Assembly (NCBI GenBank): GCA_030446485.1
Contig: JAUJNF010000011.1
Span: 1-64,000, forward strand
Length of the DNA stretch: 64,000 nt
Reading direction: 5' to 3'
Origin: Thermoleophilaceae bacterium
GTDB lineage: Bacteria; Actinomycetota; Thermoleophilia; Solirubrobacterales; Thermoleophilaceae
Positions 46,174-59,762 of the stretch are shown here, in pieces. Positions within the stretch are counted from its first letter, which is position 1. Each line of letters begins with the position of its first letter. The notes beneath the pieces were generated by a model. That model made no database searches. It had not been told where the DNA came from and worked only from the letters and a program-made list of their open reading frames with translations. A program made the position numbers and the translations under genes.

Positions 46174-46244
46174 CGGGTTGACAGCGGACAGTTGAGCCCG
46201 CCTTCGGTCCGCCCTGTCAACTGTCAACTGTGAACCGTCAACCG
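46174..46244. repeat. Heptamer-type palindrome downstream of the SDR gene (locus B)
   Basis: On the minus strand, five bases after the SDR stop, the sequence reads GTTGACG GTTCACA GTTGACA GTTGACA GGGC. On the plus strand the other arm reads GTTGACA GCGGACA GTTGA. The arms are inverted around a loop of about 17 bases and can pair. It is of the same family as the arrays at 6322, 51697, 55927 and 58377. Confidence 0.7.
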
Positions 46245-50545: not shown

Positions 50546-51739
50546 TCACAGCCCGATCTGCTTGACGAGGATCTCCTTCATCACCTCGTCGGTCCCGCCG
50601 CCGATCGGGCCGAGTCGCGCATCGCGGGCCGCGCGCTCGAGGCCCGCATCCTGGCCGTAGCCCGCGAGCCCGCGCAGCTGCAGCGCCATGTCGGCCACCT
50701 CGAAGCAGTCGCGCTGGGTCTTCAGCTTGGCGATCGTGACCTCGCGCACCGCGTCGTGGCCCCCGGCGAACAGCCGCAGGGCGTTGTAGGTCACGGCCCG
50801 GGCCGTCTCCAGGCGAGTGGCCATGTCCGCCACCGCCCGCCGTGCGTCGCGCCCGCCGCCGTTCCCCGACAGTGGCTCGACCGTGTCCTCAAGCAGCCTC
50901 TGCATCGCGCCCACGGCGCCCAGCGCCATCAGCAGGCGCTCCCACTGGAAGTTGGCCATGATCAGGTAGAAGCCGCCGTTCTCCCTCCCGAGCAGGTTCT
51001 CCTCGGGCACGAAGACGTCGTCGAAGGCCAGCTCCCCGGTGTCGGAGGCGTGCCAGCCCATCTTCTTGAGGGCCTTCGACTGGTCGAAGCCCTCCATGCC
51101 CTTCTCGACCACCACGAACGACAGCCCGTGGTGGCCTCCCTCCTGCGTCGTCTTCACCGCACACACCACGAAGTCCGCGCGCACGCCGTTGGTGATGTAG
51201 GTCTTGGAGCCGTTCACCACGTAGCCGCCGTCCACGCGCCGGGCGAAGGTGCGGATGCCGGCCACGTCGGAGCCGGCGCCGGGCTCGGTGATCCCCAGGG
51301 CGGCGATCTTCTCCCCCCGGATGGCCGGCACCAGGAAGCGCTCCTTCTGCTCCTCGGTGCCGAACTTCCACACCGGCGGCGTGGCGATCCCGATGTGGGC
51401 CCCGATGCCGGCCGCCAGCCCACCCGACCCGCAGCGCGACAGCTCCTCGGTGAAGACGGCGTCGTCGAGGAAGTCCCCCGCCTGGCCGCCGTACTCGGAC
51501 GGGTACTTCAGCCCCAGGTAGCCGCGCTCGGCCAACCGCTCGAACACCTCATGCGGGAACCAGCGCGCCTCCTCCCACTCCTCGGCGTGCGGCTGAAGCT
51601 CACGCTCCACGAACTCCCGGACTTCGGCGCGGAGCGCCTCGTGCCTGTCCAAGAACGGAGGGCAGGGCCGGCGAGGCGAAGGCTCGAAGGCTGCCCCGGC
51701 CAACTGCCAACTGCCAACTGCCAACTCAGGCGACGCCAC
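50546..51739 (-). CDS. Acyl-CoA dehydrogenase
   Basis: The flavoenzyme introduces the trans-2 double bond in acyl-CoAs and passes electrons to ETF. Signatures are GYLGLKYPSEYGGQAGDFLD, ALGITEPGAGSDVAGIRTFA and the C-terminal AGYGQDAGLERAARDARLGP / GGTDEVMKEILVKQIGL block. GTG 51739 gives 397 residues, but its first 14 or so are the translation of the heptamer array (locus C), and the family start is nearer residue 28 (FLDRHEALRAEV). A TTG within or after the array may be the true start. It follows the SnoaL gene on the same strand. Confidence 0.88.
   Translation of the reverse strand: MASPELAVGSWQLAGAAFEPSPRRPCPPFLDRHEALRAEVREFVERELQPHAEEWEEARWFPHEVFERLAERGYLGLKYPSEYGGQAGDFLDDAVFTEELSRCGSGGLAAGIGAHIGIATPPVWKFGTEEQKERFLVPAIRGEKIAALGITEPGAGSDVAGIRTFARRVDGGYVVNGSKTYITNGVRADFVVCAVKTTQEGGHHGLSFVVVEKGMEGFDQSKALKKMGWHASDTGELAFDDVFVPEENLLGRENGGFYLIMANFQWERLLMALGAVGAMQRLLEDTVEPLSGNGGGRDARRAVADMATRLETARAVTYNALRLFAGGHDAVREVTIAKLKTQRDCFEVADMALQLRGLAGYGQDAGLERAARDARLGPIGGGTDEVMKEILVKQIGL
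51697..51727 (-). repeat. Heptamer array (locus C)
   Basis: On the minus strand the array reads GTTGGCA GTTGGCA GTTGGCA GTTGGCC, starting about 16 bases after the stop of the SnoaL gene. Only one arm is present; no inverted partner was found in the adjacent 60 bases. It lies inside the nominal N-terminus of the acyl-CoA dehydrogenase frame. Confidence 0.75.
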
Positions 51740-55140: not shown

Positions 55141-55926
55141 CTGTCCTACGAGACCATCCTGTACCACGTGGCGCCGAACGGAGTGGCCACCATCACGCTC
55201 GACCAGCCCGACACGCGCAACGCGCTGTCGAACGAGCTCCTCGGCGAGCTGATCGACGCCTTCACGGGTGCGCGGGCCGACGACGCCGTGCGCTGCGTGG
55301 TGCTGACCTCTTCGCACGAGAAGGTCTTCTCCTCCGGCGGAAACCTGTCGGGCTTCGCCGGGGAGGTGCCGCTCGTGCACAAGCACTTCGGCTCCGAGCG
55401 GTTCGTGCGCCTCTTCAGGCTGATCGGCGAGCTCGGCAAGCCCTCGCTGTGCGCCGCCAACGGGCACGTGCTGGCCGGCGCCCTCGGCATTGCGCTGGCC
55501 TGCGACCTCGTGATCGCGCGGGAGGGAGCCACCTTCGGCACGCCGGAGATCAACGTCGGGCTCTTCCCGTTCATGATCATGGCCCTGATCTACCGCAACG
55601 TGCCGCGCAAGAAGACGAACGAGCTGCTGCTGCTCGGCGAGCGCCTCAGCGCCGGCGAGGCGCTCGCCGCGGGGATCGTGAACCGGGTCGTGTCCGCGGA
55701 GGACTTCGGCGCGGCGGTCGACGACTGGTCGGCCAAGCTCGCTGGCAAGTCGCCGGCCCTGATGCGCCTCGGCAAGGACGCGATCTTCCGCCAGCAGGAC
55801 ATGGCTTTCCACGACGCGCTCGAGTTCCTCCACGCCCAGCTCACAATCGCCCTCTCCACCGAGGACGTGGTCGAGGGCGTGACGGCGTTCTTCGAGAAGC
55901 GGGAGCCGAGGTGGGTCGGGAGATGA
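55141..55926 (+). CDS. Enoyl-CoA hydratase/isomerase family protein (probable CTG start)
   Basis: A crotonase-fold protein. The oxyanion-hole segments are FSSGGNLSGFAGE and ANGHVLAGALGIALACDLVI, followed by FGTPEINVGLFPFMIMALIY. The family usually begins with a sequence like SYETILY-V, and here this is coded from CTG 55141, five bases after GGAGGCGA. The first ATG, GTG or TTG in frame lies further in (GTG 55168) and would delete the first strand. The CTG start gives 261 residues. It is followed by an arginase-like gene after a heptamer array. Confidence 0.88.
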   Translation: MSYETILYHVAPNGVATITLDQPDTRNALSNELLGELIDAFTGARADDAVRCVVLTSSHEKVFSSGGNLSGFAGEVPLVHKHFGSERFVRLFRLIGELGKPSLCAANGHVLAGALGIALACDLVIAREGATFGTPEINVGLFPFMIMALIYRNVPRKKTNELLLLGERLSAGEALAAGIVNRVVSAEDFGAAVDDWSAKLAGKSPALMRLGKDAIFRQQDMAFHDALEFLHAQLTIALSTEDVVEGVTAFFEKREPRWVGR

Positions 55927-55969
55927 GTGGACCGCGGACGGTGCACGGTGGACGGGTTGACAGTTGACG
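55927..55969 (+). repeat. Heptamer array (locus D)
   Basis: Immediately after the stop of the hydratase gene the sequence reads GTGGACC GCGGACG GTGCACG GTGGACG (G) GTTGACA GTTGACG. Both heptamer flavours (GTGGAC and GTTGAC) occur side by side, which ties the 58377 element to loci A, B and C. The array occupies the intergenic space up to six bases before ATG 55976. Confidence 0.75.
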
Positions 55970-55975
55970 GGGTCC

Positions 55976-56815
55976 ATGGGCGTATCTCTCATCTCGCTTT
56001 CCTGCCGTATCTCCGATCGTGCGCTCGGGCCCGTGCGGGGTGTCGAGGCGTTCAGTCCGCTCGTGGCCGAGCGGCTCGGCGAGGTGCCGCGGAAGATCGG
56101 TTCGGCGGTCGAGCCGTTCGAGGCGGGCTGGGCCGATGACCTCGCCGCTGCCCGGGGCTGCCTGCTCGAGGCCGGTGGGCAGGTCGAGGACGCTCTGGCC
56201 GCGGGACGCGTGCCGGTGCTGGTGTCGAGCGACTGTGCCCTGGCGCTCACCACGCTGCCCACGGTCGCGCGACTGCGGCCCGACGCGCGCGTGCTGTGGC
56301 TGGACGCGCACGGGGACTTCAACACCCCGGACACCACGGCCAGCGGCTACCTGGGCGGCATGGCCCTGGCCGGCGCCTGCCGAGCCTGGGAGAGCGGCTT
56401 CGACGGGGAGATGCCGGCCGAGCGAGTGGTGCTGGCCGGCGTGCGAGACCTCGAGGCCGGCGAGCGCGAGGCGCTCGAGCGGAGCGCGGTCACCGTGATC
56501 GGCTCGAGCCTCGAGACGCTCGTGTACGTGAAGAACGCCCTCGACCGCGCCCCGGTGTTCGTGCACCTCGACCTCGACGTGCTCGACCCCCAGGACTTCC
56601 CGGCGTGGATCCCGGCCGAGGGAGGGCTTCGCGGGGAGAAGCTCTACGACCTGCTGGAGGCCGTCTGCGACGAGTGCGAGCTGGTCGGCCTCGAGGTCAC
56701 CGTCACCTGCGGCCCGACGGACCGGCTGGAGATCCAGGCCGCCACCTCCACGGCCCTGCACGCGATGGGTCCCTTGTTCGACGCCGTCAAGAGAGGAGCC
56801 CGTGTCAGCCACTGA
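55976..56815 (+). CDS. Arginase/ureohydrolase-family protein
   Basis: The 279-residue protein has the ureohydrolase fold. Metal-binding motifs are VLWLDAHGDFNTPDTTASGY and FVHLDLDVLDPQDFP; the first motif is SSDCAL, where Cys stands in place of the usual His of GGDH. Such a change is seen in some arginase-family branches of unknown substrate. ATG 55976 is chosen because an upstream TTG lies inside the heptamer array. No Shine-Dalgarno is present. It overlaps the carboxyltransferase gene start by 14 bases. Confidence 0.85.
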   Translation: MGVSLISLSCRISDRALGPVRGVEAFSPLVAERLGEVPRKIGSAVEPFEAGWADDLAAARGCLLEAGGQVEDALAAGRVPVLVSSDCALALTTLPTVARLRPDARVLWLDAHGDFNTPDTTASGYLGGMALAGACRAWESGFDGEMPAERVVLAGVRDLEAGEREALERSAVTVIGSSLETLVYVKNALDRAPVFVHLDLDVLDPQDFPAWIPAEGGLRGEKLYDLLEAVCDECELVGLEVTVTCGPTDRLEIQAATSTALHAMGPLFDAVKRGARVSH

Positions 56816-58376
56816 TACCACGCAGTCGATCCTCCGCCCCCTGGTCGAGGAGCTCCACGAGCGGCGGGAGCGCGCGCGGCTCGGCGGAGGCGAGGAGAAG
56901 ATCGCCAAGCAGCACTCGCGCGACAAGCTCACCGCCCGCGAGCGGCTCGCGCTGCTGATCGACGCCGGCACCTTCGTCGAGCTCGGCATCCACGGGCGGC
57001 CGCACTTTTCGCAGGCCTCGATGCAGGGCGTCGACGCGCCGGCCGACGGGGTGATCACGGGCTACGGGAAGGTCGAGGGTCGCCTGGTGGCCGTGTGCGC
57101 CTACGACTTCACGGTGATGGCGGGCTCGATGGGCATGACCGGCGAGCTGAAGGTCACCCGGCTGCGCGAGCTCGCGCTCGGCAAGCGCATCCCGTTCGTC
57201 TGGCTGCTCGACTCCGCCGGCGCGCGGATCCAGGAGGCGGTCGGCTCGCTGTTCGCCGGCTCGGGCCACCTCTTCCGCGAGGAGGTGACGATGAGCGGGG
57301 TGATCCCGCAGGTGGCCGCGCTGATGGGGCCGTGCGCGGCGGGCACCGCCTACATCCCGGGTCTCGCCGACTTCGTGCCGATGGTCCGTGGCCGGGGCTC
57401 GATGGCGCTGGCCGGGCCCCACCTCGTGCGCGCCGCCACCGGCGAGGACGTGACCCAAGAGGAGCTCGGCGGCTCGCGCGTGCACTGCCGCAAGTCGGGC
57501 GTCGGCGACCTCGAGGTGGGCTCCGACGAGGAGTGCATCCAGTCGGTGAAGGACTACCTGTCGTTCTTCCCCTCGAACTGCGAGGAGAAGCCCCCGCTGC
57601 GGGAGAGCGACGACCCCGTCGACCGCATGGACGAGGAGCTGCTCGACGTTATCCCCGAGTCCAACCGCAAGCCCTACGACATGTACGAGGTGATCGGCCG
57701 GATCGTGGACGACGGCTGGTGGTTCGACATCAAGCCGCAGTTCGCGAAGACCGTGATCACCTGCCTCGCCCGCATGGGCGGCCGGCCGGTGGGCATCGTG
57801 GCCAACCAGCCGAGGCAGCTCGGCGGCATCCTCGACAACGACTCGGCCGACAAGGCCGCGCGCTTCATCAACCTGTGCGACGCCTTCGGGGTTCCGCTCC
57901 TCTTCCTCCAGGACGTGCCCGGGTTCATGGTCGGCACCAAGGTCGAGGAGGCGGGCATCATCCGCCACGGGGCCAAGATGCTCTACGCGGTGTCCCGCGC
58001 GACCGTGCCCAAGGTGACGGTGATCCTTCGCAAGGCCTACGGCGCCGGCTACTACGTGATGTGCGGGAAGGCCTACGAGCCCGACCTGATCGTGGCCTGG
58101 CCGAGCGCCGAGATCTCGGTGATGGGCGCGGAGGGGGCGGTGGAGATCATCTTCCGCAAGCAGGTCGACTCGGCCGAGGACCCCGCGGCCAAGAAGGCCG
58201 AGCTGATCGACGGCTTCCGAAAGATCATCGACCCCTACATCGCCGCGGGCAACGACCTGATCGACGACATCATCGACCCGCGCGAGACGCGCCCGACGGT
58301 GATACGGGCGCTGGAGATGGCGGCCACGAAGAGGGTGGAGAGGCCGTGGAAGCGGCATGGGGTGATGCCGGTATGA
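56802..58376 (+). CDS. Acyl-CoA carboxylase carboxyltransferase subunit (PccB/MmdA-like)
   Basis: The 524-residue protein carries the carboxyltransferase domains: the KLTARERLALLIDAGTFVEL start, LLDSAGARIQEAVGSLFAGS, VAALMGPCAAGTAYIPGLAD and the C-terminal KAYGAGYYVMCGKAYEPDLI with MGAEGAVEIIFRK. It transfers CO2 from biotin to propionyl-CoA or a similar acyl-CoA. The biotinyl protein at 37276 could be a partner; a biotin carboxylase is not in this window. GTG 56802 starts inside the arginase-like gene. The stop TGA at 58374-58376 is directly followed by the inverted heptamer element. Confidence 0.94.
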   Translation: MSATDTTQSILRPLVEELHERRERARLGGGEEKIAKQHSRDKLTARERLALLIDAGTFVELGIHGRPHFSQASMQGVDAPADGVITGYGKVEGRLVAVCAYDFTVMAGSMGMTGELKVTRLRELALGKRIPFVWLLDSAGARIQEAVGSLFAGSGHLFREEVTMSGVIPQVAALMGPCAAGTAYIPGLADFVPMVRGRGSMALAGPHLVRAATGEDVTQEELGGSRVHCRKSGVGDLEVGSDEECIQSVKDYLSFFPSNCEEKPPLRESDDPVDRMDEELLDVIPESNRKPYDMYEVIGRIVDDGWWFDIKPQFAKTVITCLARMGGRPVGIVANQPRQLGGILDNDSADKAARFINLCDAFGVPLLFLQDVPGFMVGTKVEEAGIIRHGAKMLYAVSRATVPKVTVILRKAYGAGYYVMCGKAYEPDLIVAWPSAEISVMGAEGAVEIIFRKQVDSAEDPAAKKAELIDGFRKIIDPYIAAGNDLIDDIIDPRETRPTVIRALEMAATKRVERPWKRHGVMPV

Positions 58377-58410
58377 GGTGGACGGTGGACGGTGGACGGT
58401 GGACAGGGCT
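58377..58410 (+). repeat. Left inverted arm of locus E
   Basis: (GGTGGAC)x4 plus AGGGCT, starting right after TGA 58374-58376 of the carboxyltransferase gene. The four units are exact. Confidence 0.85.
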
Positions 58411-58413
58411 GCG

Positions 58414-58755
58414 TTATGGCAGCTTCCTGATCAATCCGTTCAACATGCGGCCCAGCCGATCGAGGTCGTCGGCGTGATCGTCGTCGGTGAGGCCGCGGGC
58501 GTTCGCTCTGAGCAGCCAGTGCTCGGCTTCGTAGAGGGATCCACGAGCGATGAACAGGAACCGTCGCCTGTCGGCACGGTGCCAGCGACCGGCGCCTTCG
58601 GCGATGTTCGCCCCGATCGAGTCGGCTGCACGAACGAGCTGGAGACCCGCGGACCATCTGTCGAACGCCTGCCAACGAAGCACGTCGACTCGGACCTCGT
58701 CAGCAAAGGCTACCGCGTGCTTGTAGACGTCGAGGTCATGAAAGTCACTGGCCAT
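58414..58755 (-). CDS. Four-helix-bundle protein of the 23S rRNA intervening-sequence (S23/IVP) family
   Basis: The 113-residue protein matches the family throughout: DLDVYKHAVAFADEV, then LVRAADSIGANIAEGAGRWH, FLFIARGSLYEAEHWLLRA and the ending LGRMLNGLIRKL. The four helices are easily traced. Family members were first found in 23S rRNA intervening sequences of Leptospira and others, and related proteins (Avd) serve diversity-generating retroelements; no reverse transcriptase is here. ATG 58755 is preceded by a perfect GCTGCTT-C-AAGCAGC hairpin. Both flanking genes are on the plus strand, so this gene is inserted against the run. The function is unknown. Confidence 0.88.
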   Translation of the reverse strand: MASDFHDLDVYKHAVAFADEVRVDVLRWQAFDRWSAGLQLVRAADSIGANIAEGAGRWHRADRRRFLFIARGSLYEAEHWLLRANARGLTDDDHADDLDRLGRMLNGLIRKLP

Positions 58756-58784
58756 GCTGCTTCAAGCAGCAACGGACCAGTAAT

Positions 58785-58819
58785 AGCCCCTGTCCACCGT
58801 CCACCGTCCACCGTCCACC
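58785..58819 (-). repeat. Right inverted arm of locus E
   Basis: AGCCCCT followed by (GTCCACC)x4, the reverse complement of the left arm with one extra base. It replaces the place where a Shine-Dalgarno for the following BKACE gene would lie. Confidence 0.85.
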
Positions 58820-58823
58820 AGAC

Positions 58824-59762
58824 ATGACCGACCCAACCATCATCACCTGCAGCATCAGCGGCGCCGTCGCCAATCGCGAGCAGTGCCCGGCGATTCCGTA
58901 CACGCCGGAGGAGTACGCCGCCGAGGCGCGGCGGATAGTCAACGAGGGCGGCGCCATGATCCACATCCACGCGCGCACGCGCGAGGGCGTGCCGTCCTAC
59001 GAGGTCGAGGACTTCGCGGCGATCACCGAGGCCATCCGTGCGGAGGTCGACGACGTGATCGTGAACTACTCGACCGGCGCGATAGGGGTGCCGCTCGAGA
59101 AGCGGCTCGAGTACCTGCGCGCGCTCGAGCCCGACGTGGCCGCGCTGAACATGGGCTCGATGAACTACGCCAAGTACTCGCGCAAGCGGCGGGACTTCGT
59201 GTTCAAGGCGGTGTTCGAGAACAGCTTCGACACGATCATCGCGCTGCTCGAGGTCATGAACAAGCACGGGATACGGCCGGAGCACGAGTGCTTCGACACC
59301 GGGCACGTGGCCAACCTCGATCCGCTGATGGACATGGGGCTGCTTCGCGAGCCGCTGCAGATCTCGTGTGTGATGGGCGTGACCGGCGGCATCCGCCCGA
59401 GCGTCCGCAACCTCGCCCACATGGCCGACCAGATTCCCGGCGGTGCCGACGGTCCCAACAACTGGGGCGTGATCGGCATCTCGCGCGATCAGTGGATGCT
59501 GGTGGCCGCGGCGCTGACCCTCGGGGGCAACATCCGCGTCGGCCTAGAGGACAACTTCTACCTCCCGAACGGGGAGATGGCGCGCTCGAACGGCGACCTG
59601 ATCGCAAAGGCTCGCCAGATGACCGAGGACGTCGGCCGGCGGCCGGCCACGGTGGCCGAGGCGCGCGAGCTTCTCGGCGTGCCGAAGCGCGGCGAGGTCA
59701 GCAGGCGAGACGTCCTTCGGCACCCGCTGCAGGCTGCCGAACGGGCGGCGGGGGACGCGTGA
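58824..59762 (+). CDS. 3-keto-5-aminohexanoate cleavage family protein (BKACE)
   Basis: BKACE enzymes condense a beta-keto acid with acetyl-CoA and cleave it to acetoacetate and a CoA ester. The 312-residue protein has the zinc-binding MIHIHARTREG, the VNYSTGAIG strand, HECFDTGHVANL and IRVGLEDNFYLPNGEMA near the end. ATG 58824 lies four bases after the inverted arm, and no ribosome-binding site is visible. The substrate specificity cannot be read. A CoA-transferase gene follows 13 bases later. Confidence 0.92.
   Translation: MTDPTIITCSISGAVANREQCPAIPYTPEEYAAEARRIVNEGGAMIHIHARTREGVPSYEVEDFAAITEAIRAEVDDVIVNYSTGAIGVPLEKRLEYLRALEPDVAALNMGSMNYAKYSRKRRDFVFKAVFENSFDTIIALLEVMNKHGIRPEHECFDTGHVANLDPLMDMGLLREPLQISCVMGVTGGIRPSVRNLAHMADQIPGGADGPNNWGVIGISRDQWMLVAAALTLGGNIRVGLEDNFYLPNGEMARSNGDLIAKARQMTEDVGRRPATVAEARELLGVPKRGEVSRRDVLRHPLQAAERAAGDA

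Follow-up and report, generated by a model that had tools for sequence, protein, structure and literature searches.

Why should a single small gene, read against both of its neighbours, lie between two matching arrays of a seven-letter word in the gap between a carboxyltransferase (pccB-like) gene and a BKACE gene? The question is raised by positions 58377-58819 of the window, i.e. the whole 64,000-nt stretch of Thermoleophilaceae DNA that was analysed. The arms of this unit (58377-58408 and 58788-58819) are a 32-nt inverted repeat, 100% complementary, composed of (GGTGGAC)x4 + AGGG and spaced 379 nt apart (Table 1). An earlier note on this DNA, made from the letters alone, was right about the inverted (GGTGGAC)x4 arms; the pairing it described as near-perfect and as including AGGGCT is exact and runs over 32 nt, ending with AGGG. 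Between the arms there is one ORF only, at 58414-58755 on the minus strand. The left arm begins immediately 3' of the carboxyltransferase TGA (58374-58376) and the right arm stops 4 nt short of the BKACE ATG at 58824, so that the note's placement of the unit, flush with a stop on the left and four bases before a start on the right, stands. Its claim that a plus-strand transcript could form a duplex of at least 30 bp is likewise borne out by the 32-nt exact arms and by fold prediction, which gives the plus-strand RNA a long unbroken basal stem (MFE -246.8 kcal/mol, z = -8.95 against shuffles).

Table 1. Features of the unit, its host genes and the heptamer features without IVP in the window.
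Feature	Coordinates	Strand	Basis or remark
Upstream host gene, carboxyltransferase (pccB-like)	56802..58376	+	PF01039, E=2e-168
Left arm, (GGTGGAC)x4 tandem array	58377..58404	+	Flush with the pccB TGA stop
Left arm, inner end, AGGGCT	58405..58410	+	58405-58408 pair with the right arm
IVP / S23 four-helix-bundle gene, 113 aa	58414..58755	-	PF05635, TIGR02436, AlphaFold2; antisense to both neighbours
Leader, IVP start codon to 5' array	58756..58787	-	Sequence
Right arm, CCCT + (GTCCACC)x4	58788..58819	+	Exact reverse complement of the left arm
Downstream host gene, BKACE	58824..59762	+	PF05853, E=4e-92
IVP-less degenerate GGTGGAC/GGTTGAC array	55926..55970	+	Begins within the TGA that closes an ORF at 55926; fills the gap towards the next gene
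IVP-less short inverted heptamer hairpin, GGTTGAC.. / ..GTCAACC (GGTTGACAGCGGAC.. / ..GTGAACCGTCAACC)	46176..46244	+	In a gene gap
Single array (GCCAACT)x4	51699..51726	+	No obvious inverted partner

The enclosed gene is a member of the intervening-sequence protein (IVP) or S23 family, in agreement with the earlier note, which had recognised a single IVP-family gene within the arms and antisense to the plus-strand genes on either side. In profile searches the ORF scores well above the curated cut-offs of both PF05635 (E=1.3e-22, 80.5 bits, cut-off 33.8) and TIGR02436 (E=6e-23, 81.1 bits, cut-off 24). Its AlphaFold2 model, from a 25-row alignment, is a confident four-helix bundle (pLDDT 93.6), and the best match in the PDB is 2GSC, the S23 protein of Xanthomonas (TM 0.84-0.91), followed by 2RLD. 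A remoter structural match is Avd of the diversity-generating retroelements (DGRs) (4DWL, TM 0.67-0.71; also the DGR RNP-RT entries 8ub7 and 8ube). To our knowledge IVP has neither a catalytic domain nor a nuclease motif. Pairs of IVP genes give dN/dS values of 0.05-0.18, and the protein is thus maintained by purifying selection. Genomes outside the source family carry 3-14 IVP copies each, some truncated or with stops, as expected for mobile genes.

A known system of similar build is the 23S rRNA intervening sequence (IVS) of Coxiella burnetii, in which an S23/IVP ORF lies in a ~28-bp inverted-repeat stem that is cut by RNase III, 2-3 tandem heptamers GACAGAT are found in the stem 5' of the ORF, and S23p is apparently not expressed (PMC4990558). 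The window unit resembles it in having a lone S23/IVP ORF within an inverted-repeat stem that contains heptamers, and its terminal repeats form such a stem in prediction, as those of an IVS should. It differs in that it sits between the pccB and BKACE protein genes and not inside a 23S rRNA gene, in that its arms are nearly all heptamer array, and in that its gene is antisense to the host operon; furthermore, the IVP genes of heptamer-armed units show purifying selection and not decay. Compared with insertion sequences and MITEs, the unit has IVP alone as its protein-coding content.

Whether heptamer arms are a property of this locus or of IVP genes at large was examined with 80 IVP homologues from genome contigs of many phyla, of which 79 loci were usable. 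All tandem-repeat periods from 3 to 14 were scored within 180 nt of the IVP gene and in windows of the same contigs as controls; the score thresholds are arbitrary, the controls are matched, and the sampling of homologues favours query-like loci. At a score of at least 10, period 7 is found on one side or more in 77% of the 79 loci and on both sides in 59%, as against 2.9% of control windows (61/79 loci, Fisher P about 1e-66), and a score of at least 12 leaves 75%. Other periods from 3 to 13 reach 5% at most, period 14 being the double of 7. Pruning of near-duplicate loci leaves period-7 arrays at 51/74, and in an independent sample of 30 IVP loci from 369 Gammaproteobacteria they are present at 25 (controls 2.3%), with zero for every other period; an artefact of near-duplicates was rejected on these two counts. 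About 31% of the non-redundant IVP loci fall below the array threshold, some of these having 8-mers or short arrays. The intergenic, heptamer-array-bounded form that the earlier note took to be new, and its kinship with IVP, are right, but other loci have this form too: it accompanies most of the IVP genes tested across many phyla and is found in most of the bacterial phyla sampled. The unit is thus confirmed as real and is more general than first noted.

The two arms of a unit match each other far better than they match those of other units. When the 3' arm is reverse-complemented, its word agrees with that of the 5' arm (0-1 mismatch) in 47/65 loci, as compared with 11% between loci, and the same word in same-strand orientation occurs in only 2/65. 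From locus to locus the words vary widely, with only a loose GT/AC-rich composition in common across phyla, and a search for a fixed sequence motif within the arms common to all phyla gave none. Words in other phyla can be AT-rich, on which ground heptamer arms as an oddity of the source genome or of high-GC DNA were rejected. A typical unit consists of an array, a leader (median 31 nt), the IVP gene and an array nearly touching the IVP stop codon, ~534 nt overall. Some units have words of 8 nt instead of 7 (L338 in genome G516, L090 and possibly L029 and L034). A location of IVP inside rRNA genes was also considered and rejected, an Rfam search of 20 Gammaproteobacterial IVP loci returning tRNAs only and no rRNA. 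A plasmid search gave one distant match.

Gain of units at gene junctions, and exchange of one whole unit for another, are evident from comparisons of related genomes. Across units, 53/116 outer array ends lie at most 12 nt from the stop codon of a gene reading towards the unit, as against 2.4% of random positions outside long ORFs, which makes the window unit typical in its stop-to-start span. The orthologous pccB-BKACE gaps, whose comparison the earlier note had recommended, are empty in three families (G004 and G025; G060; G049, G044 and G055), where stop and start overlap (ATGA) or nearly so. The junction is filled in G000, G014, G022 and the L036 contig, and the four units there each have their own self-complementary heptamer (GGTGGAC, GTGACTG, GTGCCCA and CAGCTNC), that of G022 holding only an internally deleted IVP remnant. 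Far from having the same gene and arms at this locus throughout and no copy elsewhere, the relatives include some with an empty junction and some with arms of another word, and further copies exist among them. Because the empty state recurs across sister families, it looks ancestral and the insertion at pccB-BKACE derived. Flanking repeats could be made out at two of the four filled sites, on both sides of the unit in G000 (ATGA) and L036 (ATGAGCT), with a single ATGAGC in the empty relatives. A target-site duplication is only suggested by these repeats, since they would also result from selection to preserve the stop as well as the start codon.

Other junctions hold different units or hairpins in different genomes. 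In the Nostoc gap upstream of an obg-like gene, some genomes have a complete unit, its arms being GTCATTA arrays, others have deleted units with the arms retained, and most have IVP-less hairpins of other words. At a second Nostoc gap the alleles L091 and L190 have flanks ~96/91% identical, IVP proteins 69% identical and different heptamers, and identity breaks at the arrays. A Mucilaginibacter gap has 7-mer arms with IVP in L112, 8-mer arms without IVP in L338 and neither in L351; the 8-mer word of L338 has the same extra base in both arms when compared with its 7-mer relatives. Over eleven hand-chosen alleles of four junctions the pairing score of an arm with its own partner averages 22.3, as against 6.1 across alleles (P=4e-6). 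Arms at one junction match themselves while differing in word from allele to allele, a pattern in which turnover in place is not distinguishable from re-insertion. Separate insertion events, instead of turnover of the arms, could account for a junction having different words in different genomes; on the question of a single insertion, the IVP tree of same-junction units gave a polytomy in which same-junction proteins were not separated.

Heptamer arrays also occur away from IVP genes, mostly in genomes that have IVP. In the 2.6-Mb source assembly GGTGGACGGTGGAC occurs 32 times and its backward control once, which is beyond chance; PF05635 is present there as a single copy (assembly 76% complete). 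The other GGTGGAC arrays are dispersed across the source genome, many in gene gaps and several as short inverted pairs around tens of bases, and the window itself has three additional heptamer features without IVP (Table 1). Counted in sampled genome stretches away from IVP genes, period-7 arrays number 14 in 400 kb of IVP+ and 2 in 400 kb of IVP- relatives from the source family, and 8 in 289 kb and 0 in 300 kb, respectively, among Gammaproteobacteria (pooled, 22 in 689 kb vs 2 in 700 kb, P=1.5e-5). Dispersed heptamers have been described as GGGAATC in Xanthomonas, with 70+ close inverted pairs, and as GGGGA(C/T)T in Nostoc (PMC4692102), and TAACTGA heptamers in Beggiatoaceae, cyanobacteria and Bacteroidetes, the spread of which MacGregor considered to look horizontal by a mechanism not evident (PMC4679880). 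These families and the cyanobacterial STRRs resemble the present arrays in being intergenic, often in close inverted pairs and patchy across phyla; the difference is that the arrays described here are the boundaries of IVP units. Among the 369 Gammaproteobacterial genomes, (GGGAATC)3 occurs in G493 only, one of the 77 with IVP, and the IVP gene of G493 lies in an accB-accC-like junction flanked by inverted GGGAATC copies. Neither PMC4692102 nor PMC4679880 mentions S23, intervening-sequence protein or four-helix protein, and no paper on a general IVP-heptamer link was found among the open-access papers searched.

Taken together, the feature at 58377-58819 is probably one copy of a widespread miniature mobile hairpin unit in which IVP acts on heptamer hairpins. 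Mobility of the unit is well supported by the comparison of genomes, transposition itself not having been observed. Such a unit, ~450-620 bp in all, would consist of the IVP gene alone between two inverted arrays, the tandem word of which is mostly 7 and sometimes 8 nt long, and would insert at gene junctions, typically between the stop codon of one gene and the start of the next. Its RNA, and possibly also its single-stranded DNA, would fold into a long stem, and a hairpin may be the intermediate in its spread. By analogy with the 23S rRNA IVSs the RNA stem is a putative substrate of RNase III, the trimming of which could make insertion into operons and rRNA tolerable. IVP, related in fold to Avd and to the pentameric S23 protein, would most likely bind the folded arms and may promote the spread, upkeep or repair of hairpins, the dispersed IVP-less ones included. 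Likeness of the arms could be kept by one arm templating the other or by replacement of whole units. A more tentative proposal, slightly short of an even bet, is that IVP genes and tandem-word hairpins make up a distinct class of mobile element, in which a non-enzymatic pentameric four-helix protein spreads hairpins and inserts them at stop/start junctions while the 7-/8-nt word of the arms changes and yet stays complementary; 23S IVSs, STRRs, GGGAATC and TAACTGA would then all be its products.

The alternative that fares best places everything at the RNA level. The unit would be an IVS-like passenger, harmless because its arms fold and are cut by RNase III. Horizontal transfer, together with homologous recombination between junctions, would account for its spread, and the function of IVP would be an unrelated one in the host or the ribosome. 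The very stable predicted stem, the RNase III-cut 28-bp heptamer stem of the Coxiella IVS (PMC4990558) and the purifying selection on IVP all fit this account. It is nevertheless somewhat doubtful, as arrays bound the units exactly while flanks stay nearly identical, occupied sites of different phyla have no flanks in common, and dispersed IVP-less hairpins follow the presence of IVP.

Another trans-acting enzyme, such as a reverse transcriptase, a RAYT/IS200-like Y1 or other transposase, would also account for moving hairpins, with IVP as an accessory. REP hairpins moved by RAYTs are an established precedent, and REP/BIME systems resemble the present one in having dispersed hairpins and one encoded protein tracking them. 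Avd, the fold of which IVP shares, is a nucleic-acid-handling accessory protein of DGRs. Unlike in those systems, neither the reverse transcriptase PF00078 nor the Y1 transposase PF01797 had a match in the IVP+ relatives G000, G014, G018 and G022 (assemblies 76-95% complete; the search covered these two families), and, compared with REP/RAYT, the arms are heptamer arrays of changing sequence. Neither a DGR-like nor a RAYT-like engine therefore explains the units in these relatives; reverse-transcriptase and RAYT/Y1 mobilisation were both rejected for the source lineage, and an enzyme other than IVP as the mover is considered unlikely overall.

Still less probable is an indirect link, in which slippage-prone heptamer microsatellites or terminator hairpins arise alone and IVP genes come to lie in them or simply tolerate them. 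In several bacteria no other longer simple repeats are as common as heptamers, for which polymerase slippage is the explanation given (see PMC4679880 and PMC4692102), and IVP-less hairpins do stand at the same obg-like junction of Nostoc; against this, the association is period-specific, involves inverted arrays on the two sides and recurs in independent samples, arrays are scarce in the sampled IVP- genomes, and slippage alone gives no shared word in two distant arms. Equally improbable is that the arms are operators to which IVP binds for autoregulation or control of the flanking operon, the unit being a domesticated regulatory cassette: arrays adjoin start codons and TAACTGA repeats have been proposed as translational regulator sites (PMC4679880), but words differ at the same junction even among relatives, and related families manage without a unit at pccB-BKACE.

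A mobile unit served by IVP would have consequences beyond this locus. S23/IVP, a protein the function of which is not known, and several unexplained families of heptamer repeats have a common genomic context. If IVP is the factor, the origin of 23S rRNA intervening sequences can be put to the test, as operons appear to house most units and those in rRNA would be special cases. The matching of distant arms in spite of word change also bears on template switching or hairpin-copying in replication.

Two further observations concern IVP-like proteins in other settings. A small Gammaproteobacterial genome (G451:C1, loci L331 and L332) has 11 PF05635 matches, of which 10 score weakly (30-35 bits). 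These 10 seem to be full-length and almost identical to one another; they have no heptamer arms, lie each after a coding segment that is itself repeated, and possibly belong to a different system, DGR-like or cassette. A CRISPR survey names the 23S rRNA IVP as one of the partners newly associated with CRISPR adaptation modules (PMC10910872), and it is worth checking whether arrays flanking IVP might have fed that signal.
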